IMG/VR virus record: IMGVR_UViG_3300015171_000016
Coordinates: 1-36,858 of that record
DNA: 36,858 bases
DNA from: a virus
Strand: one strand, 5' to 3'
Shown: one piece after another, positions 1,656 through 31,914 of the stretch
How positions within the stretch are numbered: position 1 is the stretch's first letter
Layout: every line of letters begins with the position of its first letter
The notes under the pieces: generated by a model
Seen by the model: the letters and a program-made list of their open reading frames with translations, nothing else
Databases searched by the model: none
What the model was told of the DNA's origin: nothing
Translations under genes and position numbers: made by a program

Positions 1656-2216
1656 TTATCCTTTGATAGGTCGAATATTTGTAAAGGTCGCGTTGCCAAG
1701 TTTATCGAGGTTTACGTTTGCATCCCGAGGAACGATATACGCCTGTGCGGCTTGAGCGAGGCTCGTCGGGCGGTCGTCGAACCCTTTCCCCATCCCACGT
1801 TTGTCATATGCCGACAGAAACATCAGCTCGCATAACGCGTGGTCTAAGTGCGACCGTCCACTTTCTGGATCGTTATTTTCACCCTGCCACCAGGCGGACA
1901 AGTGACGCTGAAGAGCGCCGAACACTCGCCCGTAAGCAATGCCAAGCTCCCAATTTCTCGCATCGTACTTTCGTGCTCCGTCAGTAAGGACTTCAGCAAC
2001 GCCTTTGATAGCATCGTAAGGCAGTAGCTCCCATCTCGGTTTTTTTTCATCAAATTTTTTCCCGCCATCTTTTGTCTCCTGTCCGTTCATGTTTAGCTCC
2101 TGTAGATTCAAATCCTCCGGTGGGGGAGGTGCTATTTTGATTTCGTCTTTGTGGTCCCAGCCGAATATGTGGCGGCCCTCTTCTCCGCCGCACCAGCATT
2201 TACCAGACATCGCCAT
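1656..2216 (-). CDS. dATP/dGTP diphosphohydrolase-family protein (former DUF5664, MazG-like helical)
   Basis: The C-terminal two thirds match the phage family annotated as dATP/dGTP diphosphohydrolase N-terminal domain: GARKYDARNWELG, then FGALQRHLSAWWQGENNDPESG and SHLDHALCELMFL. The acidic and His residues of this all-helical fold are where MazG-type enzymes bind metal and nucleotide. The expected role is hydrolysis of dNTPs to dNMPs, tuning the nucleotide pool for the adjacent polymerase. Residues 1-60 are a separate stretch with a CWCGG motif and a proline run. The start at 2216 lies inside the end of the preceding gene (17-base overlap) and has only a weak ribosome site. An ATG two codons later is equally possible. 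Family assignment is good, but the actual activity is inferred. Confidence 0.8.
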   Translation of the reverse strand: MAMSGKCWCGGEEGRHIFGWDHKDEIKIAPPPPEDLNLQELNMNGQETKDGGKKFDEKKPRWELLPYDAIKGVAEVLTDGARKYDARNWELGIAYGRVFGALQRHLSAWWQGENNDPESGRSHLDHALCELMFLSAYDKRGMGKGFDDRPTSLAQAAQAYIVPRDANVNLDKLGNATFTNIRPIKG

Positions 2217-14536: not shown

Positions 14537-14981
14537 GAAGACGGAAGGCAATCCAGCCATGGTGCCGGGGAAGTCCATGAACCCGCAGGGACGCCCGAAG
14601 GGGAGTCTATCCCGTAAGACTCATCCACAGGTCAAAGAACGCCTGCTCGGCAAATGGCAGACTCATCCGGTGGACAAGCTGGTGGAGATTGCCAACCGCG
14701 TCAGTGCCTCAGACCCGAAGATGGCAGCGGAGATTTGGACCAACCTACTCAAATATTTTGAACCCACGAAGAAACCGGTCGAAACTGCGCCGGTACAGAA
14801 CACCCCCGAGGAGTCCGTTCTAGCGGCCCAGGAAACATTCAAGTTACTTGAGGAGATCGAAAAGAATGGACTCAGCAGCGATACCCAAGGAAGTCAAGGA
14901 ACTGGCGTGGAGACAGGGAAGGCTGATGTACCTCCTCAAGCCAGCCCAGAAGAAGATTTATCAGGGGATCAAGACCAGTAA
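14523..14981 (+). CDS. terminase small subunit candidate
   Basis: 152 residues from ATG 14523 (GGGAGAGCATCCAG upstream; an earlier in-frame TTG lies inside the previous gene). The N-terminus carries NPQGRPKGSLSRKTHP, a basic motif common at the start of phage DUF5681-type and small terminase proteins. A helical core (VKERLLGKWQTHPVDKLVEIANRVSASDPKMAAEIWTNLLKYF) and an acidic, flexible C-terminus follow. Its role would be recognising the packaging site and presenting DNA to the large subunit. The gene overlaps the large terminase. Assignment rests on position and general pattern. Confidence 0.65.
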   Translation: MGLDKKTEGNPAMVPGKSMNPQGRPKGSLSRKTHPQVKERLLGKWQTHPVDKLVEIANRVSASDPKMAAEIWTNLLKYFEPTKKPVETAPVQNTPEESVLAAQETFKLLEEIEKNGLSSDTQGSQGTGVETGKADVPPQASPEEDLSGDQDQ

Positions 14982-16326
14982 CGATCTCGTCTATGTTGTA
15001 AATTGCAGCCGTCGCCTTGGAAAGACGTTCTGCATGGTGGCAATGGCCATCGAAGCTGCCCTTCAAAACATCAATTTTCAGATTCATTTCGGCGCGCCGT
15101 ACCAGAACGCTCTGAAAGACATCCTTCTCCCCATTTTTCGGCAGATTCTCACAGATTGTCCCGTTGATCTTCTTCCACAATGGAAGCAGCTCGAAAGCAA
15201 GTGGGTCTTTAAGAACGGAAGCTACATCAAACTTTGTGGCGCAAACAATGGCCAGTTCGATAACCTCCGCGGAAACAAGTCCGACCTGTTCATCCTCGAC
15301 GAAGCCGCCCAGGTTGACAAACTGGACGAGGTAATTAACAGCGTGGTGCTGCCCCAGCTTCTCAGCAGCAAGAATCCGCACAAACGTTTGATTCTCCCGA
15401 GCACTCCGCCGACCACACCGGACCACCCTTTTAAGAAGTACGCCGAAGACGCGCAGGCTGTAGGCGCCTATTCCCATTTCACCATCTTCGACGGCGATTA
15501 TACTGCCGAAGAGTTGAAACCCTTTATGGCGAAAGCCGGGGGAGCGGAGTCCACGACCTGGAAGCGCGAATATCTGGCGCAATTTGTCGTTGATTCGGCC
15601 CTTCACATTGTCCCGGAGTGGACAGGCCACCCGGAATATGTCGCAGAGGTCAAAAAGGACGATTACTTTCAGTTTTATCAGATCGTCGAAGGACTGGACA
15701 TTGGGTACCGAGATTTTACGGCGTTCATCCTTGGCTATTTTGATTTCCAGAACGGGAAGTTGATAATCGAGCACGAGTACGCGCTGAAAGAGAATGACTT
15801 CACGACGGACCTTCTCGCGAAGAACATCAAGGACCTCGAGAGTGAATACACCGTCATTAATAAAACGCGCATACGCCGTATTTCTGATAACAATAATCTC
15901 AATTTGGTTGCTGATCTTGCCCGTCTTCATAAGTTACCTTTTGCTCCTGTCAGTAAAAACACTGGAAGCGGTACGGACCGCAAGGGCAAAGAGTGGATGG
16001 TTAGTCAGGCACGACAATGGGTGAACGCTGGAAAACTCATTATCCACCCGCGCTGCAAGATGCTTTTAGCGTCATTGGAGTTTGGTATCTGGAAAAGCGG
16101 CCACGCCGAGTTCGCAAGAAGCGAAAAGCTGGGCCATTACGATTTCATAGATGCGCTTGTGTACCTAATTGCGGGTCTGATGCCGTCCGTGCAGAATGTC
16201 AACCCTATTCCTCCTTTGTACAAGATCAATGTTGCCACAACGATGTTTCCGAATAATCAAATTCCCTACGTTCATCCAAACAAGCAAGATGAAGAGATAA
16301 AAAAGATGTTCACTCCGAAATTTTAG
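14866..16326 (+). CDS. terminase large subunit (packaging ATPase and nuclease)
   Basis: 486 residues. ATPase domain: Walker A SRRLGKT (about 48-54), Walker B DLFILDEAAQ, and the coupling STPP motif. RNase H-like nuclease: GLDIGYRDFTAFILG (first Asp), ISDNNN (second) and HYDFIDALVYL (third). It pumps DNA into the capsid and cuts concatemers. ATG 14866 follows GAGGAG and overlaps the small subunit by 116 bases; an alternative ATG at 14926 follows AGGGAAGG and would still leave a complete ATPase. Further upstream starts are unsupported. Confidence 0.94.
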   Translation: MDSAAIPKEVKELAWRQGRLMYLLKPAQKKIYQGIKTSNDLVYVVNCSRRLGKTFCMVAMAIEAALQNINFQIHFGAPYQNALKDILLPIFRQILTDCPVDLLPQWKQLESKWVFKNGSYIKLCGANNGQFDNLRGNKSDLFILDEAAQVDKLDEVINSVVLPQLLSSKNPHKRLILPSTPPTTPDHPFKKYAEDAQAVGAYSHFTIFDGDYTAEELKPFMAKAGGAESTTWKREYLAQFVVDSALHIVPEWTGHPEYVAEVKKDDYFQFYQIVEGLDIGYRDFTAFILGYFDFQNGKLIIEHEYALKENDFTTDLLAKNIKDLESEYTVINKTRIRRISDNNNLNLVADLARLHKLPFAPVSKNTGSGTDRKGKEWMVSQARQWVNAGKLIIHPRCKMLLASLEFGIWKSGHAEFARSEKLGHYDFIDALVYLIAGLMPSVQNVNPIPPLYKINVATTMFPNNQIPYVHPNKQDEEIKKMFTPKF

Positions 16327-16337
16327 AGGATAACCAC

Positions 16338-18569
16338 TTGGAAAAATTTGTTTCTGATATTTATTGGGCCTCCGAACCAGATGTTATAAAGCTCATCGGG
16401 TTTTTGTCCGAAAAAGTAAGCCTGTTTGATCGGCACCTGGATATGTCGGGCCGCTGGCTCACTGCGCGCGACCTGTACTACAATTACTTTCTCGTCAACG
16501 AAACCAACTACACCTTCCCCACATTCGGTGCGGATGGTTTTAAGCGTTTGAACATAAACCATTTCCGGGCCATTCTCAAACACCAACTGTCTCTGGTAAC
16601 AGCACAGCGCGTTTCGCCCGAACCGATTGCCACGAACACAGACTACCGTTCCCAGGCCCAGGTCAATTTCTGCAAGAACATTCTCCGCTATCTCGGCAAA
16701 GAAAAGAAGCTGGATAAACAATTTGAAGCAGCCACAGAGATCGCGATAGTTCTCGGAGCGGCCTATATCTCCCGCGAGTGGGACGCCAGCATCGGCGAGC
16801 CGTACACCCAGGATCAAACCGGTGTGGCGCAACGTAAGGGTGACTTTAAGACCGGCGTGTACAACTGGTTGGATGTTATTTTTGATTTCGCTCAGGGCGG
16901 CTACGACGAGTGCCAATGGAAGATTCTACGTAAATACGTGAATCGCTGGGATCTCATCGCCCGGTTCCCCCAATTTACGGACCAGATCAAAAGCATGTCT
17001 GTGGCCCCCGAAGTAAAGCGGCACCGCCTCGGCCACATCATCAACGAGCAGAACGACGATTTGATTCCGCTATACACATTTTACCACGACAAGAGCGCGT
17101 CTATCCAGGATGGCCGTATGACGTTGTTCTTGGACTCCAATACCTGTTTGTTCGATGGTCCGATCCCCTATAAACGTATTCCCATTTCAAGGATTGCCGC
17201 AGATGACCAAATTGATAGCCCGTTTGCCTATTCGGTTTCAATGGATCTTCTTCCGATACAAAAAGTCTATAACGCTCTTTGTTCTGCTATCTGCACTAAC
17301 CAAGCTGCTTTTGGTGTACAAAATATTCTCATACCTCGCGACGCGGCGATCTCACTGAGCCAACTCACCGAGGGTCTCAACGCCATCTACTACGATTCAG
17401 CCGTCACACAAGGCGCCAAGCCCGAAGCGCTGAACCTTTTGATGAACAAGCAGGAAGTTTTCAACTGGATTGAATATCTCGAAAAGAAGATGGCCCAAAT
17501 TTCAGGTGTGAATGATACCATCCAGGGCAACCCCGAAGCAAATTTGAAGAGCGGCACGGCACTCGCCTTTGTGGCCTCCCAAGCCCTCACCTTTATCAGC
17601 CCTCTCTCCCGTTCCTACAACGGGCTAATCGAAGATACCTGGACCGGTATCATTGACATCTTGAAGCAGTACGCGACGACACCACGCATGATTCTGATCT
17701 CCGGCGTGGCGAACAAAGCCCAAGCGGCTCAGTTCACGTCCAAAGAAATCGAAGACATTGATCGTGTCATCGTCGAGGCCGGTAACCCGCTAACCGATAC
17801 CCTCGCCGGGCGCATCCAAGTGGCCCAGGATATGCTGCAAGCGGGTCTGACGACCAAAGAAGAATACCTGAACGTCTTGATGACGGGCCAACTTGAACCG
17901 GCGTATCAATACGAAAATGGTCAGGTGATGCAGCTCAAAGAAGAAAACGAGCAGCTTCAGAACGGGAAACCGGTCAAAGCCATGTCGACCGACAACCACC
18001 CGCTCCATATTCGCGAACACACCGTCCTTTTGAACTCGCCGGAAGTCCGTGATGACCCCAATCCGAACAACCCGGTCAAACTTTCTGTCACCGCGCACAT
18101 TCTGGAACACATGAACATGTGGAGTCAGATGGACCCGCGCCTCGGCGCCGCTCTGGGCGTTCCACCCCCACCGCCGCCTCCGCAGCCACCAGCACCACCG
18201 GCGCCGCCGTTGCCCAAAGAAAGCATTTCTTTCAAAGACCTCCCGCCAGACGGACAGGTTCAAATGGCCGCTCAGGCTGGAATCAAACTCGGTCAGCCGC
18301 AAGCGCCCGTCGCGCCGCCGATGCCGGTAATGCCGGGACATCCGAATCATCCCAGCAATGCCGGGAAAAAGCAGCCCACCGGACGGGAGAACCCGAACGG
18401 AGCCAAGACGCCAGGCGCCCCCAACATTCCGGGGATGATGCAACAAGGCTCGCAAAATAGTTTACCGGGCGTTAATGCGCCCGTCATGCCGCCGGGTAGC
18501 CCGGCCATGAACCAAGAAGCGAACGCTCGTATGGCCGCAAATCAGCAGATTCCGCAGCTACCCCATTAA
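16338..18569 (+). CDS. portal protein
   Basis: 743 residues, TTG start at 16338 after AGAGGATAACCAC. P22-like/podovirus portal pattern: YYNYFLVNETNY near the N-terminus, IVLGAAYISREWD, and VNDTIQGNPEANLKSGTALA followed by helical barrel sequence (SPLSRSYNGLIEDTWTGIIDIL). The dodecameric ring is the DNA gate at one capsid vertex. From about residue 608 the C-terminus is unusual: a run of prolines with Ala, then ~120 Pro/Gly/Asn/Gln-rich residues with no evident fold. Follows the terminase directly, as usual. Confidence 0.88.
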   Translation: MEKFVSDIYWASEPDVIKLIGFLSEKVSLFDRHLDMSGRWLTARDLYYNYFLVNETNYTFPTFGADGFKRLNINHFRAILKHQLSLVTAQRVSPEPIATNTDYRSQAQVNFCKNILRYLGKEKKLDKQFEAATEIAIVLGAAYISREWDASIGEPYTQDQTGVAQRKGDFKTGVYNWLDVIFDFAQGGYDECQWKILRKYVNRWDLIARFPQFTDQIKSMSVAPEVKRHRLGHIINEQNDDLIPLYTFYHDKSASIQDGRMTLFLDSNTCLFDGPIPYKRIPISRIAADDQIDSPFAYSVSMDLLPIQKVYNALCSAICTNQAAFGVQNILIPRDAAISLSQLTEGLNAIYYDSAVTQGAKPEALNLLMNKQEVFNWIEYLEKKMAQISGVNDTIQGNPEANLKSGTALAFVASQALTFISPLSRSYNGLIEDTWTGIIDILKQYATTPRMILISGVANKAQAAQFTSKEIEDIDRVIVEAGNPLTDTLAGRIQVAQDMLQAGLTTKEEYLNVLMTGQLEPAYQYENGQVMQLKEENEQLQNGKPVKAMSTDNHPLHIREHTVLLNSPEVRDDPNPNNPVKLSVTAHILEHMNMWSQMDPRLGAALGVPPPPPPPQPPAPPAPPLPKESISFKDLPPDGQVQMAAQAGIKLGQPQAPVAPPMPVMPGHPNHPSNAGKKQPTGRENPNGAKTPGAPNIPGMMQQGSQNSLPGVNAPVMPPGSPAMNQEANARMAANQQIPQLPH

Positions 18570-18999: not shown

Positions 19000-19929
19000 A
19001 TGGACGTTCCCAATATCCCAGCCGCACCCGCAGTACCAGCAGCGCCCGTCGCAAATGCCGTCCCCGCAACACCCGCAGTAAAGGCCCCCGAGGTAAAGGC
19101 CGGAGCACCGGTTGATGCAAAAGCCGCCAACGCAATCAAAACGACTACGGCTGCCGAAAAAGCCGTCATCCAGAAGATCAAAGTCGGCGACACAGAGTAT
19201 GACGAAACCACTCTGCGGTCCATGATTGAGAAATCGAAAGGCGCAGACAAGAAGTTTTTAGAAGCCGCTCAAGCCCGCAAAGAAGCCATGCGGTTCTTCA
19301 AAATGGCGAAAGAGAATCCCCGAGAGTTCTTGGAAAAGACGGGACACGACCCACGGAAGTTCTCGTACGATGAAGTGGCGAAAGACATACAGGACAAATT
19401 GCGCGATCCGCGCGAAGTGGAACTGGAAAAAGCGCAGGCCCGGCTGAAAGAGTTTGAAGCAAAAGAAACCGCCGATAAAGAACGTGTCCAGCAAGAGAAA
19501 CTGGGCCGTCAAGCGAAGGCGCTCGAAGAGCGTATGCACTCGCAAGCGATCCAAGCCTTGGAAGCCCATCCGGCGTTGCCGAAAAACGGCTTCACCGTGG
19601 CGAAGATGGCGAAGTACTTGGAAGTCGTGCAGCAAAAGACCGGCGAACTTCTTACCTTTGAAGACGTGGCCGGTGTCATCGAATCCGATATTCGCAGCGA
19701 AGTGAAAGGCATGGTTAGTGGCGCCACTGCGGAACAGTTGATCGAGTTGATCGGCGAGCAAGGCGCAGAAGCCATCCGTCAGTATTATCTCAACAAGCTG
19801 AAAGACCCATTGAAAGGTGGAACCGGAGCCGCAACGTCCGAGTCCTCCAAATCAAAACCAAAATACAACGGCTCAAAAGACTTCTGGAAGACAATTGATC
19901 GTGCCGCCAAAGCTGAGCGGGGTGAATAA
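19000..19929 (+). CDS. scaffolding protein candidate
   Basis: 309 residues. A Pro/Ala/Val-rich flexible N-terminus (about 1-50) precedes long charged coiled coils (EAAQARKEAMRFFKMAKENPREFLEKTGHDPRKFSYDEV, ELEKAQARLKEFEAKETADKERVQQEKLGRQ). The C-terminus is basic (SKSKPKYNGSKDFWKTIDRA), where scaffolds usually contact capsid protein. Composition, length and position between portal and major capsid gene all fit a scaffold that guides procapsid assembly. AAAGGAGAATAAC precedes the ATG. Confidence 0.72.
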   Translation: MDVPNIPAAPAVPAAPVANAVPATPAVKAPEVKAGAPVDAKAANAIKTTTAAEKAVIQKIKVGDTEYDETTLRSMIEKSKGADKKFLEAAQARKEAMRFFKMAKENPREFLEKTGHDPRKFSYDEVAKDIQDKLRDPREVELEKAQARLKEFEAKETADKERVQQEKLGRQAKALEERMHSQAIQALEAHPALPKNGFTVAKMAKYLEVVQQKTGELLTFEDVAGVIESDIRSEVKGMVSGATAEQLIELIGEQGAEAIRQYYLNKLKDPLKGGTGAATSESSKSKPKYNGSKDFWKTIDRAAKAERGE

Positions 19930-20132: not shown

Positions 20133-20633
20133 AATTCATTTTGCTGGGTTGGTACCGTGATAGGCGGAAAACAAGCGTGGAATGCGCTACCCCGACACCG
20201 GCAAATAGATTCGGAGTTTACCCGACAAGGCAATATCCGAGGCTCGGGAAGTCCCTTAGATTTCCCCAACGTCCAGGGTGATGACGCAAAACTCACCCAC
20301 ATTTTTGGGAAGTAGCTCAGCCGGTAGAGTAGACGACTGTTAATCGTCAGGTCGTTGGTTCGATCCCAACCTTCCCAGCATGATTTCTGCGTAGGAGTTA
20401 GGGCGTTACGCACCTGAGCCGGGAAGGCGATAACTTCAAATCCCGCAAAATTTCAAATCCTCTCCACCCTTAACCGGACGAGACGGCCTCGAAAGAGGGC
20501 AGCAAAAGTATCGACACGAATAGCACACGACGGTGACCCGTAAGATCCACCCAATCAACTGCACACGTTCTTGCTCGATCCTGTCACAGAACCGCAGTAT
20601 CATACAAAAATAATTTAGCACAAGGAAAATAAA
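20133..20633 (+). other. 500-base untranslated stretch holding a tRNA
   Basis: Only the tRNA-Asn gene at 20306-20378 is recognisable. The flanks (20133-20305 and 20379-20633) contain no supported gene, no clear promoter and no second tRNA; some T-arm-like pieces near 20430-20465 do not fold. AAGGAAAATAAA just before 20634 is the capsid ribosome site. Confidence 0.6.
20306..20378 (+). tRNA. tRNA-Asn (anticodon GTT)
   Basis: Complete cloverleaf. Acceptor TGGGAAG pairs with CTTCCCA; D stem GCTC/GAGT; anticodon stem GACGA/TCGTC with loop CTGTTAA (anticodon 20339-20341); T stem GTTGG/CCAAC with loop TTCGATC; discriminator G at 20378. The 3' CCA is not encoded. A phage-borne tRNA would support translation of AAC/AAU codons, which are frequent in the capsid and tail genes. 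It lies between the scaffold-region gene and the capsid gene on the same strand. Confidence 0.95.
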
Positions 20634-21911
20634 ATGGCCGCAACAATCCCATCTTCAATCATCGGAGATTTTAAGGAGCGCTACAATACCAAAGGTATTC
20701 AAGACGCGATCCCGGAATCCCGCGTAATTCTCAAGAACGTAGAATTCGACAAAGCTACCCTCGTCGGAAACGCGTTCCACACCCCGGTTATTCTGTCAGA
20801 CGAAGCCGGTTTCACCTATGCCGCGAACAACGCCGGTAACTATGCGTTGAACGGGCCGATCAGCTTGAATGTGCCGGACGCGCAAGTTCGCCCCGCTCAG
20901 ATCACCCTGGTCTCGCAAATTGCTTACGACGCTCTGTCCCAATCGCTGGGTACTGGCGCCGCGTTCTTGTCCGCGACGAAACTCATCACCAAGCGCATGA
21001 TCGACTCCATGTCCAAACGTGTGGAATTGGCCGCGTTGTACGGTGGAACGGGTCTCGGCAAAACTTCCGCGACTGGTTCGTCCGCTGTTAGTTCGACCAA
21101 GGAAATTGTGGCCTTCACGCAGCAAACCTGGTCCGATGGTATTTGGGCCGGAACGGTGAACAACCAAGTTCAATTCTACAATGGTGTCACCCTGGTCAGC
21201 TCAGGCGCAGATAGCGTGTTCACGATCACCGCTGTGAACCCCACTCTCCGCACCTTGACCGTCTCAGGCTCCACGACCGGTATCGCGGCTCTCCACGCTC
21301 TCGTGGTGACTGTCCCGACGACCCTCGACATTTATTTCAATTCCGCTTATGGAAACGAAATGACTGGTATCGACAAAATCCTCACCAACACCGGCGTTCT
21401 GTTCAACATCGACGCTGCGGTCTACGACCTGTGGAAATCCAACGTGATTGACAATGCCGCTGGCAAATTGACGTTCTTGTCCCTTCAGAACGCGGTTGCG
21501 ACGGCTGTCGGTCGTGGTTTGGACGAATCAGTGGACGTTATCCTGAACCCGAAAGTTTGGGCGAACCTCGTTACCAGCCAATCTGGTGCGCGTCGCTTCG
21601 ACTCGAGCTACAAGAAGACCCAAATGGAAAACGGAGCTGAGAAGCTTACGTTCTACTCGCAGAATGGCACGATGAACATCACGCCGAGCTTGTACCTGAA
21701 AGAAGGGGATTGCTTCATCCTCCCGTTCGACACGTATCAACGCATCGGCTCCATGGACATCGAGTTCATGCCGCAAGTGATGGGTTCTGATGAGTTCTTC
21801 CAGTACGTTCCTGGCTACAACGCCTACGAACTGCGTCTCTGGACCAACCAGCAGATCTTCTGCACGTTGCCCGCTCGTTCAGTGAAAATCTTCAACATCT
21901 CGCTGAGCTAA
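20634..21911 (+). CDS. major capsid protein
   Basis: 425 residues of HK97-fold, P22-type pattern. A helical N-terminal arm (IIGDFKERYNTKGIQDAIPESRVILKNVEF) leads into strand-rich ALNGPISLNVPDAQVRPAQITL. A long spine-helix region follows (FLSATKLITKRMIDSMSKRVELAALYGG). An inserted beta domain lies near 165-230, and the axial domain ends LWTNQQIFCTLPARSVKIFNISL. AAGGAAAATAAA precedes the ATG, and a terminator follows the gene, as expected for the most abundant structural protein. Some residues are missing relative to E-loop-rich HK97, which fits a small podovirus head. Confidence 0.85.
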   Translation: MAATIPSSIIGDFKERYNTKGIQDAIPESRVILKNVEFDKATLVGNAFHTPVILSDEAGFTYAANNAGNYALNGPISLNVPDAQVRPAQITLVSQIAYDALSQSLGTGAAFLSATKLITKRMIDSMSKRVELAALYGGTGLGKTSATGSSAVSSTKEIVAFTQQTWSDGIWAGTVNNQVQFYNGVTLVSSGADSVFTITAVNPTLRTLTVSGSTTGIAALHALVVTVPTTLDIYFNSAYGNEMTGIDKILTNTGVLFNIDAAVYDLWKSNVIDNAAGKLTFLSLQNAVATAVGRGLDESVDVILNPKVWANLVTSQSGARRFDSSYKKTQMENGAEKLTFYSQNGTMNITPSLYLKEGDCFILPFDTYQRIGSMDIEFMPQVMGSDEFFQYVPGYNAYELRLWTNQQIFCTLPARSVKIFNISLS

Positions 21912-21956: not shown

Positions 21957-22014
21957 CAAGAAGCTAGTTCTAAGAGTCCGTACGCTTCTATCTATGTATC
22001 AAAAGGAAACTAAA

Positions 22015-23202
22015 ATGTCATTTGTAAAAATTCTCATGTCAGTCCCCGACTCCTGCGAAACGATGAAGAACATTCTTCAATTGAAAGCGAGCCCCGTTAA
22101 CCAGGTCGATAATCAGAATCTCCAAAAGTTAATCGGAGACATGGTAGACGGTTCACAACTGTCCTACACAAAAATCTCTACGTGCTTGGTCCAAGCCACC
22201 GGAAACATTACGTTCAATGGTCTCCTGGCCAATGATACGATCACCGTAAATGGTACCGCCACCCCGGTTGGACCTGGCGCCGGGCCGAATCTCGGCGCGG
22301 CTGCCACCATGGCGTCCGCCGCGAGTACGACCGTCACCAATACGGGCAGTTCAGTTCTGACGGGAGATCTGGCTTTGTCGCCAGCCGGTTCCATTACGGG
22401 CTTCCCTCCTGGGACTGTTTCAGGAACCATCTATAACGGCGGTGCAACAGCATCAGCCGCTCAAACTGCGATGACCGCCGCGTACAATGACTTGGCATCT
22501 CGCCCAACGAACGTTGATCTCACTGGTCAGAACCTCGGTGGATTAACCTTGGTCCCTGGTGTGTACAACTTCTCCACATCTGCTCAATTAACGGGCACTC
22601 TTACCCTGGATGCCCAGAATAACCCGAATGCAGTGTTCGTCTTTAAGATTGGATCGACATTAACGACGGCTTCTGCTTCAACTGTCACTCTAATCAACCA
22701 AGCGAACGCTTCCAATGTGTTCTGGCAAGTGGGAAGTTCTGCGACGATTGGTACGACCACCGCCATGAAAGGTACGATCATCGCCTTGGCGAGCGTCACG
22801 ATGAATACTGGTGCAGCCTTAATCGGACGAGCCCTTGCTCGTACTGCTGCGGTTACGCTCGACACCAACGTCATCACTGTCCCTACTGCTCCTGTTCCGG
22901 CTCCCGGTAGCGGAACAACCTTCACTGCGAAAGTCACCCCGACGGGCTTGTACGAGTTCGCTCTCGGTGCGAATGATACGGCGGCTGCGTTCAACGCGGC
23001 AGTCAAAATCAACGCAATCATGAGTAACCTCGTTTCGGCTTCTGCTGTTGGAAACGTAATTACGATCACCGCGGTTCAACCTGGTGTTACTGGTAGTGCA
23101 ATCGTCATATCGAGTTCCAATAACACTCGGGCCACTGTTGTCACGATGTCCGGCGGTTCAGACGGTGTTGAAGCCACCATCAACTACGGCTGGGCTCAAT
23201 AA
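22015..23202 (+). CDS. virion surface protein with nested DUF3494 ice-binding-like domain
   Basis: 395 residues from ATG 22015, preceded by AAAAGGAAACTAAA; an earlier in-frame ATG lacks a site. Residues ~61-81 (ATGNITFNGLLANDTITVNG) and ~299-384 (TFTAKVTPTGLYEF...AAAFNAAVKINAI...) together form one phage beta domain of the 'DTVTVNG-x-TFTA' type. Between them, about 92-290, lies a full DUF3494 domain: NTGSSVLTGDLALSPAGSITGFPPG, GTIYNGGATASAAQ, AYNDLASRP, GGLTLVPGVYNF, LTLDAQNNPNAVFVFKIGSTL, NVFWQVGSSATIG and GRALARTAAVTLDTN. In bacteria this right-handed beta-solenoid is the fold of type-1 ice-binding proteins and related adhesins. Location between capsid and tailspike suggests a capsid decoration or tail attachment. 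Ice binding itself is not shown. Confidence 0.85.
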   Translation: MSFVKILMSVPDSCETMKNILQLKASPVNQVDNQNLQKLIGDMVDGSQLSYTKISTCLVQATGNITFNGLLANDTITVNGTATPVGPGAGPNLGAAATMASAASTTVTNTGSSVLTGDLALSPAGSITGFPPGTVSGTIYNGGATASAAQTAMTAAYNDLASRPTNVDLTGQNLGGLTLVPGVYNFSTSAQLTGTLTLDAQNNPNAVFVFKIGSTLTTASASTVTLINQANASNVFWQVGSSATIGTTTAMKGTIIALASVTMNTGAALIGRALARTAAVTLDTNVITVPTAPVPAPGSGTTFTAKVTPTGLYEFALGANDTAAAFNAAVKINAIMSNLVSASAVGNVITITAVQPGVTGSAIVISSSNNTRATVVTMSGGSDGVEATINYGWAQ

Positions 23203-23274: not shown

Positions 23275-26200
23275 ATGTCATTGCTTGTAACTTTTAACGG
23301 CGCCAATTACATCATTCCAACCACCAACGAGGTCGGATGGGGATCAAACCTCGATGCCTATCTCGTCGCTCTCGCTGGGGGTACCCTCCAAAAGACGGGT
23401 GGCCTTTTTACATTAACAGCCCCGCTGGACTTCGGTTCCGGCTTTGGACTAAACGCCCTTTCCTATGCGTCGCGCAGCAGCAATGTCGCGTCGACAGGAG
23501 TTTTGCGCCTCAATAACAATTCCGATGCGATAAGTTTCAGAAACGCGGCCAACAGCGCCGACCTCCCTCTGTCAGTGAATGCGGCAAATCAGCTCATCTT
23601 TAACGGAGCGGTGGTTGATACAGCAGGAGGAACCGTTCTTCTCGCAGACGGTACCCTTTCGTCTCCTTCCCTCGCATTCCTGTCTGAAACCACAATGGGG
23701 CTTTTTAGAAACGCTCCTAGCGCCATGGAATTTGTTGTGGGTGGCACCGCAGTCGTACAAATCACCTCAACAGCCACGACCTTTATGTCCAACGGCGTGT
23801 ACAATACAACGGGAAGCGCCTCCGTCCCCTCCTATTCTTTTAGCGGTAGTAGTAACGCCGGAATGTATCTCAACGGTCTAAACGACATCGGCTTTACGAC
23901 CGCCGGAATTCTGGCGATGGATATTGACGCGAGCCAAGTGGCGCACTTCGCAAATCCACCCATCTTTACTTCGCTTACGGCTTCCACGGTTCCTTTTTTG
24001 AACGCGAGCAAGGTGCTTACGTCTTCGGCAGTTACGCCTACCGAACTTGGCTTTTTATCCGGCGTTACATCGGCGGTCCAAACACAGATAAATGCCAAAG
24101 CGACCGGTACAATTACGGCGGCTAGTGCGAACCGACTCACCTACTATTCCAGTGCCACCACGCTTGCGGGTGTGACCGCCATTACGGCGTCTCGCGCCCT
24201 CTCGTCCGATACTAACGGTCTGCCGGTTGCGTCTACGACGACGGCGACAGAATTGGGTTTTGTTTCGGGTGTCACATCGGCGATTCAAACGCAGATTAAT
24301 ACAAAAGCCCCCTCCGCGAGTCCTGTTTTCACGGGAACTGTCACCACCGCAAATCTTAGCGTGGCTGGACCTCGCCCTTGGGCCGATGTAAGAGCCTATG
24401 GCGCGGTTTGTAACGGCACGACGGATGATATCGTTGCGATTCGGGCGGCGGTTACCGCGTTGGAGGCCGTCGGCGGAGGAACTCTCCTCGTGACCGGTAT
24501 TTGCGGAATCAGCAATACAGTTTATCTTCCGTCGAATGTCACCATTCAAGGAATCGGAAAAGACATCAGCGGTTTCTTCTGCGTCGTAGGTTTTGCGTCT
24601 GGTTCCAGTTGCGTGGAGATCAGACACGCCAATGGAACTTATTATCCGACCGGAGGTTTCGCCGTAAACAGCGCCGTACGTGACATCCTCATCAATGCGG
24701 TAAACGCCCCGAGTGGGTTTACATACGGCGTGGCGCTCAATCTGGTCAATTATGGATCAGTGGAACGCTGCCACATTATCTCCACCACCAAACATGGCGT
24801 GTTCCTCTCAGGAACCGACGGCACAGTCGATCAGATGTACCCCCTTGTTCGGGACTGCTTGTTTGAAAATTGCGGGCGCGATGGCGGAGCCGATACGATA
24901 GGCGGTGGAAATTATACTGGTGGACGAATTTTAAACAACACGATACTTACACCGAACGGAACGGGTATTGATAACGTCAATGTCACAGAAGCCCTTTGGG
25001 AAGGAAACATTTCTATCGGCGCGACTCCGGGACTTGGCAGCATTTGGTCTGACTTCGGCATGACCAACAGCCAAGTCACCAACAACTATATTAAGAACGG
25101 CAGTATCCATCTTTTCGGGTACCTCGCCCCCGGTCTATTGGGCGCGCCGTCGGATATTCTGGTTGAAGGAAACCACATTGTGAACGGTGGAGCTCCCGCC
25201 ATTTTGGTTTCGCCTTCCAACCAAATAGTATCTGACACGCGTGTTACCTACGGCATGAGAATTGTCAACAACCGGATTGAAAATTGTAGCGAAGCCGGAA
25301 TTGTCCTGGTAGATGTCCAAAACTCTATCATTACCGGAAATGTCATAACGAACTGGGGAACAGTCAACAACGCGACAGACGGTATTGCCCTTGCAGAAGG
25401 CCCAAATCCCGCATTGGGGTCCAAACAAAACGTTGTTGCAGATAACTCAGAGATACCTAATGCGGCAACATCTGGTTATCGAGAAACAACAAATTCTAAT
25501 AACAACACCGTATTTGGCAATACTTTTGGGTCGGCTTCGCAGACGTTCTCCCCGACGATTCCCGTTACTGCTTTTAATCTCGCAACACCCCTGAACGTCG
25601 CCGGTGTTATCACTTCCAACCCCGGACGGATCTCTATCGTCACGCCTGCAACTGCCTCCGGCGGATCGGCACTTTCCATCACGGAAGCCGATACGGTGAA
25701 TGCCGTTACAATCCTACCCACGAACGCGGCGTTTATAAACGACGGTATTTTCATAAACACCACCCGCGCAGCAAGTTCTGCCTTTAATTTCGTAGATTTT
25801 CAAGCCGCAGGTGTCAGTAAATTTAGGATCGACGGAACGGGTGCGACCACCTTTTTAGGTTCCATCACAACCGCCCTGGCGGCAAATCGGGCGATAGCAA
25901 CCAATGGGTCTGGCACCCTTGTGGCGTCTACCACAACGGCTACCGAATTGGGCTTTTTAAGCGGCGTCACGTCCGCGATTCAGACCCAGCTCAACGCAAA
26001 GGCCACCGATAGTTTAGTGGTGCACATCGCCGGAGCGGAAACCATTACCGGCGCGAAAAGTTTCTCAGCCGGAATTGGCATCACTCTGCTAAACCAATCT
26101 GCAATTGAATTTGCTGACGCGGGTAGTTTACATGCCATTACATTTGCAGCTCCCAGCACGGTTACCAGCTTCAATTATCTTCTTCCTGCCGCCGCCCCAG

Positions 26201-27867
26201 CGGTAAACGGCGCCATCATGACCGCTCTCACGAGTGGGGCCATGTCGTGGACCTCCACCCTTCCGGCGGCCAACGGAGGAACGGGTACCACAACGAGCAC
26301 GGGAAGCGGAAGCGTCGTTCTTTCGACAAGTCCGACCCTCGTCACGCCGATTCTCGGTACTCCAACGTCGGTCACTCTCACAAACGCGACCGGTCTTCCT
26401 TTAACCACGGGCGTTACAGGAATTTTACCTATTGCGAACGGGGGGACGAATAGCGGAAATGCCTTGGTTAATGGGAAATTGATGGCATCCGTTTCTGGGG
26501 CCATTGTTGAGTCGGCTATAACGAGCACGACAACTGGTACAGGCAGCGTGGTTCTCGCGACGAGTCCAGTTCTGGTTACCCCGAACCTTGGTACGCCATC
26601 GGCTATTGTCTTAACTAATGCTTCAGGAACCGTAACAAATTTAACGCTCGTTACTCCTGCCCTTGGAACTCCGTCGGCTCTAGTTCTCACAAATGCAACC
26701 GGGCTCCCCCTCACGACTGGCGTTACGGGCGTTCTTCCTGTAGCGAATGGCGGAACTGGGGACAATACTTTAGCCGCCCACGGCGTATTAATCGGCAACG
26801 GTACTAGCGCGGTAAGTGTCTCGACCGCCGGTTCTTCCGGTCAAGTTCTAACGAGCAATGGCGCGTCCGCCGATCCCACTTTCCAAAATGTGGCAGGGAC
26901 CGGTACGGTGAATAGTGGTACGCAATTTCAGTTGGCATACTATGCCACGTCTACGAACGCCGTATCTGGGCTCACGCTCATCACGGCCAATCGGGCGCTC
27001 ATCTCCGACGCAAACGGACTCCCCGTTGCCTCAGCGACGACAGCGACGGAACTCGGGTTTGTCAGTGGCGTCACAAGCGCCATTCAAACACAGCTTAATG
27101 CGAAGGCAGGACTGGCGAGTCCGGTTTTTACCGGACAGGTTCAGTTTGCCCCTGGATCAGCAGCAACACCATCATGGGCCTTTTCTACCGACACAAATAC
27201 GGGATCGCATAGCGGCGGCGCGGATCTTTTATACTTCACGACGGGTGGCGTAGATGCTCTGTTGATAGATGATACCCAGCATACTCGGGTCATACTCGGA
27301 ACAGTAGGGGCTCCTGCATACTCTTTTATCGCGGATAACGATACGGGAATTTATTCTCCGGGATCTAACCTCCTCAGTATTGCGACTGGCGGCGTGGATG
27401 CTATAACGATTAGCGCGGCTCAGGCCGTTGCGATTCGCGGAATCGCGACAAGTGGAAACGCCGCAGCAGGTTTTGTTGGGGAGTACATTTCCAGTAGCGT
27501 ATCCTCGGCAAGTGCGGTTTCGGCCACCGGGACTAGCCAATGGTTCGACGTTACCTCGATCAGTTTGACCGCAGGCGACTGGGACGTAAGTTTGGTTCAC
27601 GCCATGATATTGAACGGCTCTGTTACAACAGCAGCCACAAGTGGGATTGGAACAGCCACCGGAAATAGTTCAACAGGTCTTGTGCAGGGAGATAATCGTT
27701 TGAACTTTACGCCATCTACAACGTCTACTGGGGATGTTGGAGTGTCTATTCCGTCTTATCGCGTTTCCATCGCATCCACGACGACCTACTACCTAAAAGC
27801 CCTTTACGTTTATTCGGCTGGAACTCCTCAATCGTATGGTCGCATCTCAGCCAGGAGGGTTCGATAA
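23275..27867 (+). CDS. giant tailspike/tail fibre with pectate-lyase-type beta-helix
   Basis: 1530 residues. An N-terminal attachment part reads YIIPTTNEVGWGSNLDAYL. It leads into several lipocalin- or fibre-like blocks and the first two ELGFxSGVTSA repeats (near residues 254 and 323). From about 365 to 750 comes a parallel beta-helix beginning RPWADVRAYGAVCNGTTDD, the Pectate_lyase_3 start used by phage depolymerases and tailspikes. Next are two more ELGF repeats (888, 1256) and tandem NATGLPLTTGVTG-L-P-ANGGT fibre repeats. The C-terminal domain ends SIASTTTYYLKALYVYSAG...GRISARRVR. It probably recognises and may cleave a host surface polysaccharide. CAGGAATAAAA precedes the ATG. Confidence 0.87.
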   Translation: MSLLVTFNGANYIIPTTNEVGWGSNLDAYLVALAGGTLQKTGGLFTLTAPLDFGSGFGLNALSYASRSSNVASTGVLRLNNNSDAISFRNAANSADLPLSVNAANQLIFNGAVVDTAGGTVLLADGTLSSPSLAFLSETTMGLFRNAPSAMEFVVGGTAVVQITSTATTFMSNGVYNTTGSASVPSYSFSGSSNAGMYLNGLNDIGFTTAGILAMDIDASQVAHFANPPIFTSLTASTVPFLNASKVLTSSAVTPTELGFLSGVTSAVQTQINAKATGTITAASANRLTYYSSATTLAGVTAITASRALSSDTNGLPVASTTTATELGFVSGVTSAIQTQINTKAPSASPVFTGTVTTANLSVAGPRPWADVRAYGAVCNGTTDDIVAIRAAVTALEAVGGGTLLVTGICGISNTVYLPSNVTIQGIGKDISGFFCVVGFASGSSCVEIRHANGTYYPTGGFAVNSAVRDILINAVNAPSGFTYGVALNLVNYGSVERCHIISTTKHGVFLSGTDGTVDQMYPLVRDCLFENCGRDGGADTIGGGNYTGGRILNNTILTPNGTGIDNVNVTEALWEGNISIGATPGLGSIWSDFGMTNSQVTNNYIKNGSIHLFGYLAPGLLGAPSDILVEGNHIVNGGAPAILVSPSNQIVSDTRVTYGMRIVNNRIENCSEAGIVLVDVQNSIITGNVITNWGTVNNATDGIALAEGPNPALGSKQNVVADNSEIPNAATSGYRETTNSNNNTVFGNTFGSASQTFSPTIPVTAFNLATPLNVAGVITSNPGRISIVTPATASGGSALSITEADTVNAVTILPTNAAFINDGIFINTTRAASSAFNFVDFQAAGVSKFRIDGTGATTFLGSITTALAANRAIATNGSGTLVASTTTATELGFLSGVTSAIQTQLNAKATDSLVVHIAGAETITGAKSFSAGIGITLLNQSAIEFADAGSLHAITFAAPSTVTSFNYLLPAAAPAVNGAIMTALTSGAMSWTSTLPAANGGTGTTTSTGSGSVVLSTSPTLVTPILGTPTSVTLTNATGLPLTTGVTGILPIANGGTNSGNALVNGKLMASVSGAIVESAITSTTTGTGSVVLATSPVLVTPNLGTPSAIVLTNASGTVTNLTLVTPALGTPSALVLTNATGLPLTTGVTGVLPVANGGTGDNTLAAHGVLIGNGTSAVSVSTAGSSGQVLTSNGASADPTFQNVAGTGTVNSGTQFQLAYYATSTNAVSGLTLITANRALISDANGLPVASATTATELGFVSGVTSAIQTQLNAKAGLASPVFTGQVQFAPGSAATPSWAFSTDTNTGSHSGGADLLYFTTGGVDALLIDDTQHTRVILGTVGAPAYSFIADNDTGIYSPGSNLLSIATGGVDAITISAAQAVAIRGIATSGNAAAGFVGEYISSSVSSASAVSATGTSQWFDVTSISLTAGDWDVSLVHAMILNGSVTTAATSGIGTATGNSSTGLVQGDNRLNFTPSTTSTGDVGVSIPSYRVSIASTTTYYLKALYVYSAGTPQSYGRISARRVR
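24034..27108 (+). repeat. four copies of a 69-base tail-fibre repeat
   Basis: In-frame copies of the 23-residue unit T-x-T-ELGF-[LV]-SGVTSA-[IV]-QTQ-[IL]-N-x-KA at 24034-24102, 24241-24309, 25936-26004 and 27040-27108. Two lie before the beta-helix and two after. The nucleotide copies differ at many wobble positions, so they are old or selected at protein level. A second repeat family (NATGLPLTTGVTG with flanking VVLATSP-x-LVTP) fills 26290-26790. Confidence 0.85.
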
Positions 27868-29415: not shown

Positions 29416-31914
29416 ATGGCCACAAGTCGCCAACCTCTACAAGAAACAGAAACTCTTTCGATTAAACCGAAAGGTCTGTTCACGTATCCAAATCCGCTCT
29501 CTGAAGTTCCGCAGGGTGCTCTGCTCCAAGCATTGAACGTTATTTTGTCGCGCCCTAGCGTCCTCGAACAAAGACGCGGTATCAACTCGTTCGGAACGGC
29601 GCTTTCCGCCAACACAACTCAGCTTTATAACTACCAGGGCAGAATTATCATAAGCGCGGGCACGTCTCTCGAACGCGACTCCGATGGAAACGGAACATGG
29701 GTCGCATATTCCGGCACCTACACAAAGCCGACGGACGCCTTGGTGATTCGTTCATTTCAGGCCAACAAAAATATATACTGGTTGACAAATACCGGTCAGA
29801 AGAAACTTGACGAGCTTACCAATGCCATTACTTTTTCTGGCGCCCCAGCCGGTCTGGATGGATCAGGTACAACCACTGGATCAGGTTGGTTCACAAATAG
29901 CACTCAGGTCGCCTACAGAATTTTATTCGGATATACTGACGCCAACAACAATTTAATCCTCGGTGCGCCGTCACAGCGCATCGTCGTTTCCAACAATTCG
30001 GGAGGGGCAACGAACGTGTCCCTCACGTTCACCCTCCCAGCCGGTTTAACAACCGCTTGGCAGTACCAAATCTACCGGAGTCCGATGTCCGTCGATTTAA
30101 ACACGGAGCCCAACGACGAGTGCGCTTTGGTGTACACCGGACATCCGACAAGCGGAGAGCTTGCCGCTAATGTGGTTACAATTACTGATAGTATCAGTGA
30201 CGCGCTAAAAGGTGCGTTCATCTACACCGCATCCAGCCAACAGGGCATTGCTCAAGCAAACTATCAGCCACCCATTGCGACAGATGCTTGTTATTTCAAA
30301 GGCTACGTTTTCTCGGCGAATACAACCTCCCAGCAGCAGACTCTCGTGACATTGGTGTCCGTCGGTGCCCCCGGTCTCCAAAGCGGAGATACGGTTACGA
30401 TTGGTGGGGTCACATACACGGGCGCCGGGTCTGAGGTTATCGCATCCGCCCAATTTCAAGTGTTCACGGGTGGGACGCCTTCCCAGAACATCACGAACAC
30501 AGCCAACAGCCTTGTTCGTGTCATTAATCGCTACACAGGCAACACGACGGTATACGCTTATTATTCTTCTGGTTATTCGGATCTTCCAGGACGGATTACC
30601 CTAAAGGAACGCGGCATCGGCGGATCTGTCTTTAACAGCGTATCCTCCCGCGCAGGTGCATTTGTGCCTGATATTGGCACTACGGCTTTACCGTCCAACA
30701 ATCAATTGGCACCAAACGGCATTGCCGTCTCGAAATATCTCCAACCAGAAGCGAATCCGATTGGGCAAATACTCGTGGCGGGATCTGCCGATAAGTCCAT
30801 TTTACGCATAATTGCGTTACGCGATTATGTATTGATTTTTAAACAGGACGGCGTATACCAGATTACTGGTTCCGATCGCAGTTCATTTACGGTGCAACTT
30901 GTGGACAGCACCACGATTCTTCGGGGTATCGAAACCGCCGTTGCCTTAAACAACAAAGTTTATTTCTTCTCCAACCAAACTGTGGTATCTTTGACCTACA
31001 ACGAAGGAGCGGTTCTAAAATCATTGTCCATCAAAAAAGATCTTTTAATTCTGTCCTCGCCATTGTACCCGGCGTTTGACGCCGTGAGTTACGCGATTGC
31101 CTACGAATCTGAAAATCAATATATTCTTGGTACGGTTACTGCCCAGACAGATACTACGGCTACGCAATATTTTGTCTACAACTATCTGACGGACTCTTGG
31201 ACGACCTGGCAGTTCCCATACACAATGGGCGCGGGTTTCGTGAACCCAACGGATAATAAGCTATATTTTGGCTCGTCTGACTCTGCTTCCCGGTTTATCT
31301 ACCAGGAACGGAAGAACTATACCGAGTTTGACTACGCCGATAATTCGTACCCCATGACAATCGTTAGCTCCACGGGTTTGAGCGTACAAGTGACGGACTC
31401 CTCCGTTGCCAAAGTGGGATGGACACTGAGCCAAAGCGACCGGATTTCTGTCATCACGGCAATCCCTGACGGCACGCATGTTGTCGTCGCCAATCTTTTA
31501 AGCTGGACTGCGGGCGCCACTTTGGTTTATCGTCCGATCTCCGTGGCGCTGCAATTCGTACCGGAACATTGCGGCAACCCGGGTATCGTGAAGCACTTCA
31601 AAGAAGTTCACGCCATTTTCTCCAATGCCGATTTTAACTCCTTTGATCTCGGGTTCTACACAGATTTTAATCCGGCCATCTTCCGCACAACGCTCATGCC
31701 GAAATCTGGCGTGGGATGGGGTACAGGTCCGTGGGGCGAATTTCCCTGGGGCGGCGGAACACCGCAGGCACAGGTTATTCGCGGTCTTGTACCATTGGGG
31801 CAGCGTCGCGGTCACTGGCTCGACGTTGCCGTAAACTACGCCGACGCGCTAACGAATTTCGCGTTCGACGGCTTCGTCTTGTATTACCAAACCATGAGTC
31901 AACGGTTCCACTAG
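29416..31914 (+). CDS. tail nozzle / hub protein, beta-propeller-like
   Basis: 832 residues. The opening ETETLSIKPKGLFTYPNPLSEVPQGALLQALNVI and the repeated propeller-type strands (LYNYQGRIIISAG, NIYWLTNTGQKK, ALRDYVLIFKQDGVYQITG, NQYILGTVTAQTD, NYLTDSWTTWQFPY) are those of the large podovirus nozzle that closes the tail tube. Between about 300 and 400 sits a SGDTVTIGGVTYTG domain, homologous in pattern to the one that carries the ice-binding-like insertion upstream. The C-terminus has an aromatic-rich GVGWGTGPWGEFPWGGG loop. Start 29416 is three bases after the adaptor stop. Confidence 0.78.
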   Translation: MATSRQPLQETETLSIKPKGLFTYPNPLSEVPQGALLQALNVILSRPSVLEQRRGINSFGTALSANTTQLYNYQGRIIISAGTSLERDSDGNGTWVAYSGTYTKPTDALVIRSFQANKNIYWLTNTGQKKLDELTNAITFSGAPAGLDGSGTTTGSGWFTNSTQVAYRILFGYTDANNNLILGAPSQRIVVSNNSGGATNVSLTFTLPAGLTTAWQYQIYRSPMSVDLNTEPNDECALVYTGHPTSGELAANVVTITDSISDALKGAFIYTASSQQGIAQANYQPPIATDACYFKGYVFSANTTSQQQTLVTLVSVGAPGLQSGDTVTIGGVTYTGAGSEVIASAQFQVFTGGTPSQNITNTANSLVRVINRYTGNTTVYAYYSSGYSDLPGRITLKERGIGGSVFNSVSSRAGAFVPDIGTTALPSNNQLAPNGIAVSKYLQPEANPIGQILVAGSADKSILRIIALRDYVLIFKQDGVYQITGSDRSSFTVQLVDSTTILRGIETAVALNNKVYFFSNQTVVSLTYNEGAVLKSLSIKKDLLILSSPLYPAFDAVSYAIAYESENQYILGTVTAQTDTTATQYFVYNYLTDSWTTWQFPYTMGAGFVNPTDNKLYFGSSDSASRFIYQERKNYTEFDYADNSYPMTIVSSTGLSVQVTDSSVAKVGWTLSQSDRISVITAIPDGTHVVVANLLSWTAGATLVYRPISVALQFVPEHCGNPGIVKHFKEVHAIFSNADFNSFDLGFYTDFNPAIFRTTLMPKSGVGWGTGPWGEFPWGGGTPQAQVIRGLVPLGQRRGHWLDVAVNYADALTNFAFDGFVLYYQTMSQRFH

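Follow-up and report, generated by a model that had tools for sequence, protein, structure and literature searches.

The stretch of DNA analysed here (the window) covers positions 1 to 36,858 of an IMG/VR virus record (IMGVR_UViG_3300015171_000016). A cluster of structural genes lies on its + strand, and the first gene after the major head gene encodes a composite protein in which a DUF3494 domain is nested. The features of this region are given below, with the evidence in parentheses.

14848..16326, + strand: terminase large subunit (phrog_2, E=8.1e-30)
16338..18569, + strand: P22-like portal protein (PF16510, E=2.4e-10; phrog_156, E=3.8e-19)
20634..21911, + strand: major head protein (phrog_14242, E=9e-10)
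22015..23202, + strand: composite virion-type protein of 395 aa with nested DUF3494 (open reading frame, AAAGGAAA motif, position after the head gene, PF11999 match)
22015..22251, + strand: N-terminal flank, residues 1-79 (alignment with eight insert-free relatives, AlphaFold2, 63-aa relatives)
22252..22914, + strand: inserted segment, residues 80-300, comprising linkers and DUF3494 (excision restores a single-domain match of 142 bits)
22321..22878, + strand: DUF3494 (PF11999) ice-binding-like beta-solenoid domain (PF11999 match, match to a solved structure, Foldseek)
22915..23199, + strand: C-terminal flank, second half of the beta domain, TTFTAK...INYGWAQ (alignment, excision scan, AlphaFold2)
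23275..27867, + strand: fibre/spike-type virion protein of 1530 aa (phrog_16122, virion structural, E=7.6e-26; tail-fibre phrogs; Beta_helix)

The AAAGGAAA motif lies just 5' of the ATG at 22015 and favours the 395-aa reading; a 402-aa reading from the in-frame upstream ATG at 21994 is likewise open. Using the Pfam profile PF11999 (Ice_binding), we found that the composite protein was matched with E=1.4e-61 and 208.3 bits, far above the cut-off of 28.7 bits, and that residues 110-295 (402-aa numbering) covered positions 3-208 of the 208 in the profile. This bears out the preliminary description of this DNA, which had placed a full DUF3494 domain inside the open reading frame. The match at 22321-22878 was the only one to PF11999 in the whole 36,858-base record, and the same kind of profile search gave 0 matches in 14 control genomes. 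The nearest solved structure by sequence was 6EIO (E=4.3e-48). With E-values this low, a chance match is of no concern for the identity of the domain. Pfam matches to peptide deformylase and MCM_C in the composite protein were dismissed as noise, and PHROGs held no family for this protein.

The two flanks were scored with a profile built from 25 insert-free relatives. As separate pieces they scored 53.6 and 62.7 bits, while joined after removal of residues 80-300 they scored 142.0 bits in one piece; when an excision of the same length was slid along the protein, the score peaked at residue 80. These results indicate that a single phage beta domain is divided between the two flanks, as had been proposed from the letters alone, and in the alignment the proposed split between ITVNG and TFTA was correct to within 1-2 residues. 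The N-terminal flank probably begins with an anchor region of ~55 residues, after which the beta domain starts and runs as far as the hairpin strand DTITVN. The GC content at third codon positions was equal across the flanks and the insert (0.55/0.54/0.56), which together with the unbroken frame gives no sign of mis-assembly or of a very recent graft. An assembly artefact that joined a bacterial ice-binding gene to a phage gene would be compatible with an IMG/VR virus contig that has no end repeats, but we consider it extremely improbable, since the two flanks lie in the same frame of a single gene and have the same third-position GC as the insert, and the same junction was found in an independent contig (L117, below) with a different head gene.

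Head proteins 83-95% identical to that of the window are encoded at 12 IMG/VR loci. At eight of these (L032, L033 and L035-L040; head proteins 83-91% identical) the order of head gene and beta-domain gene is the same as in the window, and the next gene encodes an uninterrupted homologue of both flanks with a length of 178-181 aa. At three further loci the next gene encodes a 63-aa protein that matches the N-terminal part only (L030, 9389-9580; L031, 9378-9569; L034, 9391-9582), and at the twelfth (L029) the contig ends after the head gene. A profile search detected no PF11999 in the records of L030, L032, L033 and L035-L040 (n=9). By this comparison the domain insertion looks as clean as sequence can show, and an empty site of this kind, in which one phage group occurs with and without the insert at one hairpin, would allow a direct test by a single excision. 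At the loci with the 63-aa genes, the whole beta domain is optional and the presumed anchor alone is retained. A second copy of the beta domain was seen after or within the first in L058, L059, L063, L086 and L098, which suggests that several hairpins tolerate insertion.

AlphaFold2 (AF2) modelled the insert-free protein of L032 with a mean pLDDT of 87 and strands at 76-79 and 82-87, separated by a two-residue turn. In the AF2 model of the window protein the equivalent strands are 75-79 and 301-306, and the remaining secondary structure of the flanks follows in the same order, which indicates that in the model the insert occupies the turn of one beta hairpin and that the flanks close into one domain. 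Both flanks were confidently modelled (pLDDT 63-92 by 10-residue block for the N-terminal flank and mostly 77-95 for the C-terminal flank), in agreement with the earlier claim that a single-hairpin insertion leaves the host domain folded. The pLDDT of the insert was low to moderate (~29-76 by block). The alignment for this model contained relatives of the flanks only, so that the insert was folded without homologues, and this accounts for its modest pLDDT. The insert model shows a long alpha-helix plus a beta-solenoid pattern. When it was compared with the PDB using Foldseek, the top 30 matches (E<=0.001) were all DUF3494 ice-binding proteins, consistent with the solenoid fold expected earlier, and the best match was again 6EIO (E=2.5e-11, TMt 0.69, 51% identity in the structural alignment). 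From the full-length domain match and the predicted fold, the domain appears to be like the type-1 ice-binding proteins (6EIO, SfIBP_1, FfIBP, TisAFP7 and AnpIBP). The coils of DUF3494 are ordered beta1-beta6-beta5-beta4-beta3-beta2, with the N-terminal coil packed on the C-terminal coil (PMC7966756, PMC7277481). Since beta1 lies beside beta6, the two ends of the domain would be close to each other, as an insertion in a hairpin needs.

The host beta domain was found in other phages as well. Its profile matched gp13 (E=6e-24) and gp17 (E=9e-31) of the isolated phage RcTitan. By the annotation of RcTitan, the gp13 gene is the second after the one for the major capsid protein, and the gp17 gene just precedes those for the tail chaperonins and the tape measure. 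An insert-free relative gave weak matches to the tail sheaths of A-1(L), Milano, 7-7-1 and PhiTE (best E=5.5e-3) and stronger matches to predicted proteins of RcTitan and other phages, and 5 of the 17 members of the beta-domain family matched a PHROG named 'tail sheath'. These matches suggest that the host beta domain is itself a phage surface-type module. The likeness to contractile sheaths with external domains (Milano, with its extension domain at residues 91-203, PMC10811340; A-1(L); 7-7-1) is a weak fold match to these sheath proteins. Unlike the composite protein, the Milano, A-1(L) and 7-7-1 sheaths and RcTitan gp13 and gp17 all lack DUF3494. Among 50,697 phage records, tblastn with L038, a relative of 179 aa, gave no match, which reflects the sensitivity of that search, because the profile does detect gp13 and gp17 of RcTitan; when IMG/VR was searched with a single sequence, either the whole protein or the joined flanks, no confirmed relative emerged. 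Part of the beta domain recurs within the window, in residues 321-376 (E=3.6e-8) of a virion-type protein of 832 aa (29416-31914, + strand; phrog_3287).

Further DUF3494 domains in IMG/VR were found by a DNA pattern for NVFWQVG followed by an alignment search, and the pattern matches L005, L015 and L016 were set aside as chance. About 60 further non-redundant open reading frames on phage contigs contain DUF3494, at an internal position in 38, at the N-terminus in 11, at the C-terminus in 10 and alone in one. The following carriers are referred to below.

L002 (phrog_279) and L004/L007 (phrog_2839, PF17482): tail sheaths carrying DUF3494
L155 (phrog_6, E=5.7e-30): baseplate wedge carrying DUF3494
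L126 (phrog_9922): minor tail protein carrying DUF3494
L002, 7734-10595, - strand; L264, 1811-4498; L265, 1882-4713: tail sheath genes with permuted DUF3494
L120, 4893-5576; L124, 4911-5855; L177, 4536-5765: DUF3494 proteins of the bacterial secreted type

The contigs G014, G015, G026, G027 and G033 have 4-5 PF11999 matches each, across several large virion-type proteins, which in G026 include the baseplate wedge. DUF3494 is thus an optional domain that recurs in several unrelated classes of virion protein and is absent from the close relatives of the window. Its recurrence in sheaths, baseplates and tail proteins suggests that it serves phages as an exchangeable module for surface attachment. 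Host-gene contamination was considered as a source of the nested copies and rejected. The copies in L120, L124 and L177 are either true auxiliary genes or the host flanks of proviruses. In polar viral contigs, PF11999 genes of the same Pfam family as the window domain have been read as auxiliary genes for host cryoprotection (Arctic vOTUs; PMC11515562, the available part of which describes neither nesting nor a virion location), and the copies with signal peptides in L120 and L124 would fit a product that guards the infected cell from freezing outside the virion. For the window gene this is very unlikely, since the protein that surrounds the domain has no signal peptide and is related to products of head-cluster genes, and since DUF3494 elsewhere lies in sheath and baseplate proteins, which are necessarily in the virion.

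On the contig of L117, terminase and portal genes accompany a major head gene of another type (phrog_1357). The gene cluster just after this head gene encodes a beta domain of the kind seen in the window, with DUF3494 at the same hairpin; the contig stops inside the second half of that beta domain, so that this half is only partly visible. L011/L119 has DUF3494 in a second hairpin of such a beta domain; without the insert, the local score rises from 24.9 bits to 54.6. In three related sheaths (L002/L133, L264 and L265) the domain is circularly permuted, with profile positions ~37-199 followed by 2-50, which fits the coil order that places the N- and C-terminal coils side by side. The permutants and the nested, apparently portable unit of beta domain and DUF3494 are natural answers to a problem of protein engineering, namely how a loop can take up a large domain while the host domain stays folded.

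The 80 closest cellular homologues found are of the secreted type, mostly with leader sequences, as judged by eye, and with C-terminal stalk or anchor regions. They come from Chloroflexota, Acidobacteriota, Actinomycetota, Myxococcota and others, ordinary Streptomyces included, and homologues from mesophiles or non-polar sources reached identities of 65% (a Chloroflexi MAG) and 62% (Streptomyces ureilyticus). In contrast to these secreted, independent domains, the domain of the window is enclosed by a second domain in a phage structural-type protein that has no signal peptide and whose N-terminus is the phage domain MSFVKILMSVPDS... A quick tree required five changes between phage and cellular labels, two of them forced by well-supported branches, so more than one transfer between phages and cells is likely. 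The window and L117 were joined in this tree with modest support (SH-aLRT 81), and we tentatively suggest that their nested unit may share one origin. The extracellular nature of the bacterial homologues, with their signal peptides and wall or stalk extensions, and the presence of phage copies in baseplate, sheath and other tail proteins could also mean that the domain serves host-targeted adhesion only, as an auxiliary receptor-binding device that recognises the surface of a particular host. We regard this as rather unlikely, since a dedicated fibre/spike gene (23275-27867) lies directly downstream, close relatives do without DUF3494, and positions on heads and sheaths suit general binding over receptor-specific binding.

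The window protein, the L025 domain and the L004 domain had no tblastn match in the 50,697 phage records. As a positive control, the same search with the window domain matched 38 plasmid records, including plasmids of soil Rhodococcus and Streptomyces. The statement of the preliminary description that no characterised phage displays such a domain holds in these phage records as well, with the qualification that PF11999 was already known on polar viral contigs; for Southern Ocean viruses, a single 'antifreeze protein' gene was reported (PMC8407431). Phage S-SKS1, named as a homologue in this earlier work and so a candidate for a known phage with an ice-binding domain, had no PF11999 match in a direct profile search. 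Our literature search found no paper that combines ice-binding, DUF3494 and phage. The display of domains on virions is itself already known, and what is new here is the domain that is displayed, the mode of insertion and the permuted forms. Among catalogued phages, only the record CP017838.1 (L041), MWH-Nonnen-W8red 1 from Silvanigrella aquatica, encodes a protein related to the head protein of the window (24.5% identity); this record carries no annotation and no PF11999.

We consider that the DUF3494 of the composite protein serves as a mobile module for display and adhesion on the virion surface, with a probability of roughly 0.7. The composite protein is most likely a head decoration protein, as judged from gene order and the weak fold match; the slot directly after the head protein gene is usual for head decoration proteins. 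We infer that the protein is present in the virion, where the N-terminal anchor of ~55 residues, followed by the phage beta domain, would attach it to the head, and the solenoid inserted at the hairpin turn would project outward. The flat face of the solenoid could then bind an extended extracellular target, such as a polysaccharide of the matrix or cell surface, mineral or organic particles, or ice, and the bound target would hold the virion near its hosts or shield it, as is thought for phage Ig-like domains. Alternatively, the insert may be a neutral passenger, or may affect stability instead of adhesion.

That the target is ice in particular is suggested by the nearest solved homologues, which are ice-binding proteins (6EIO, 51% identical), and by viral PF11999 genes in polar waters, whose abundance was reported to peak at -1 to +3 C (PMC11515562). 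A displayed DUF3494 would in that case adsorb virions to ice or stop recrystallisation, and so give freeze tolerance or concentrate phages with their hosts in brine or at ice. Homologues from mesophiles and non-polar sources are, however, as close to the window domain as Antarctic ice binders or closer, and we think this explanation unlikely. The DUF3494 family has no conserved motif for its ice-binding site (PMC7966756), so the sequence cannot decide on ice binding. Ice-specific roles are possible, and it is the family name that points to them. Equally doubtful is the broader reading in which repeated uptake of DUF3494 by tailed phages, also in circularly permuted form, and its display over head, sheath and baseplate amount to a phage-borne trait for ice attachment or freeze survival, with virions binding ice or the surfaces of a frozen matrix.

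For the display and adhesion module, the Ig-like domains of tailed phages (I-set, Big_2 and FN3; Fraser et al. 2006, PMC9022992) offer the best working analogy. They are likewise mobile, beta-rich, found in several classes of virion protein and optional between relatives. They occur promiscuously in five virion-protein classes, one lies between strands of its host domain in the tail tube of YSD1, and their function in tail tubes is unclear (PMC9022992); mucus adherence is known for some of them. The two differ in that DUF3494 is a beta-solenoid of an unrelated fold and family, is permuted in sheaths and was not found in catalogued phages, and the composite protein had no Ig-family Pfam match. 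T4 Hoc and mucus-adherent phages are reported to have binding domains displayed on the head that raise encounter rates at a surface, a likeness in working only and not in homology. With DUF3494, a second, unrelated fold joins the few domains known to be exchanged by phages across their virion surfaces, and for this fold the physical activity of relatives is known. If ice or matrix is indeed what these domains bind, this would help to explain how some phages persist and find hosts in cold or particle-rich habitats.

Two other features of the window were noted. A tRNA-Asn gene (gtt; 20306-20379, + strand) lies amid the structural genes, after the gene at 19000-19929 and before that of the major head protein. 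On the opposite strand, alongside replication genes, the gene at 1656-2216 (- strand) encodes a protein of 186 aa that matches phrog_801 and phrog_2252, the latter of which is named endolysin.
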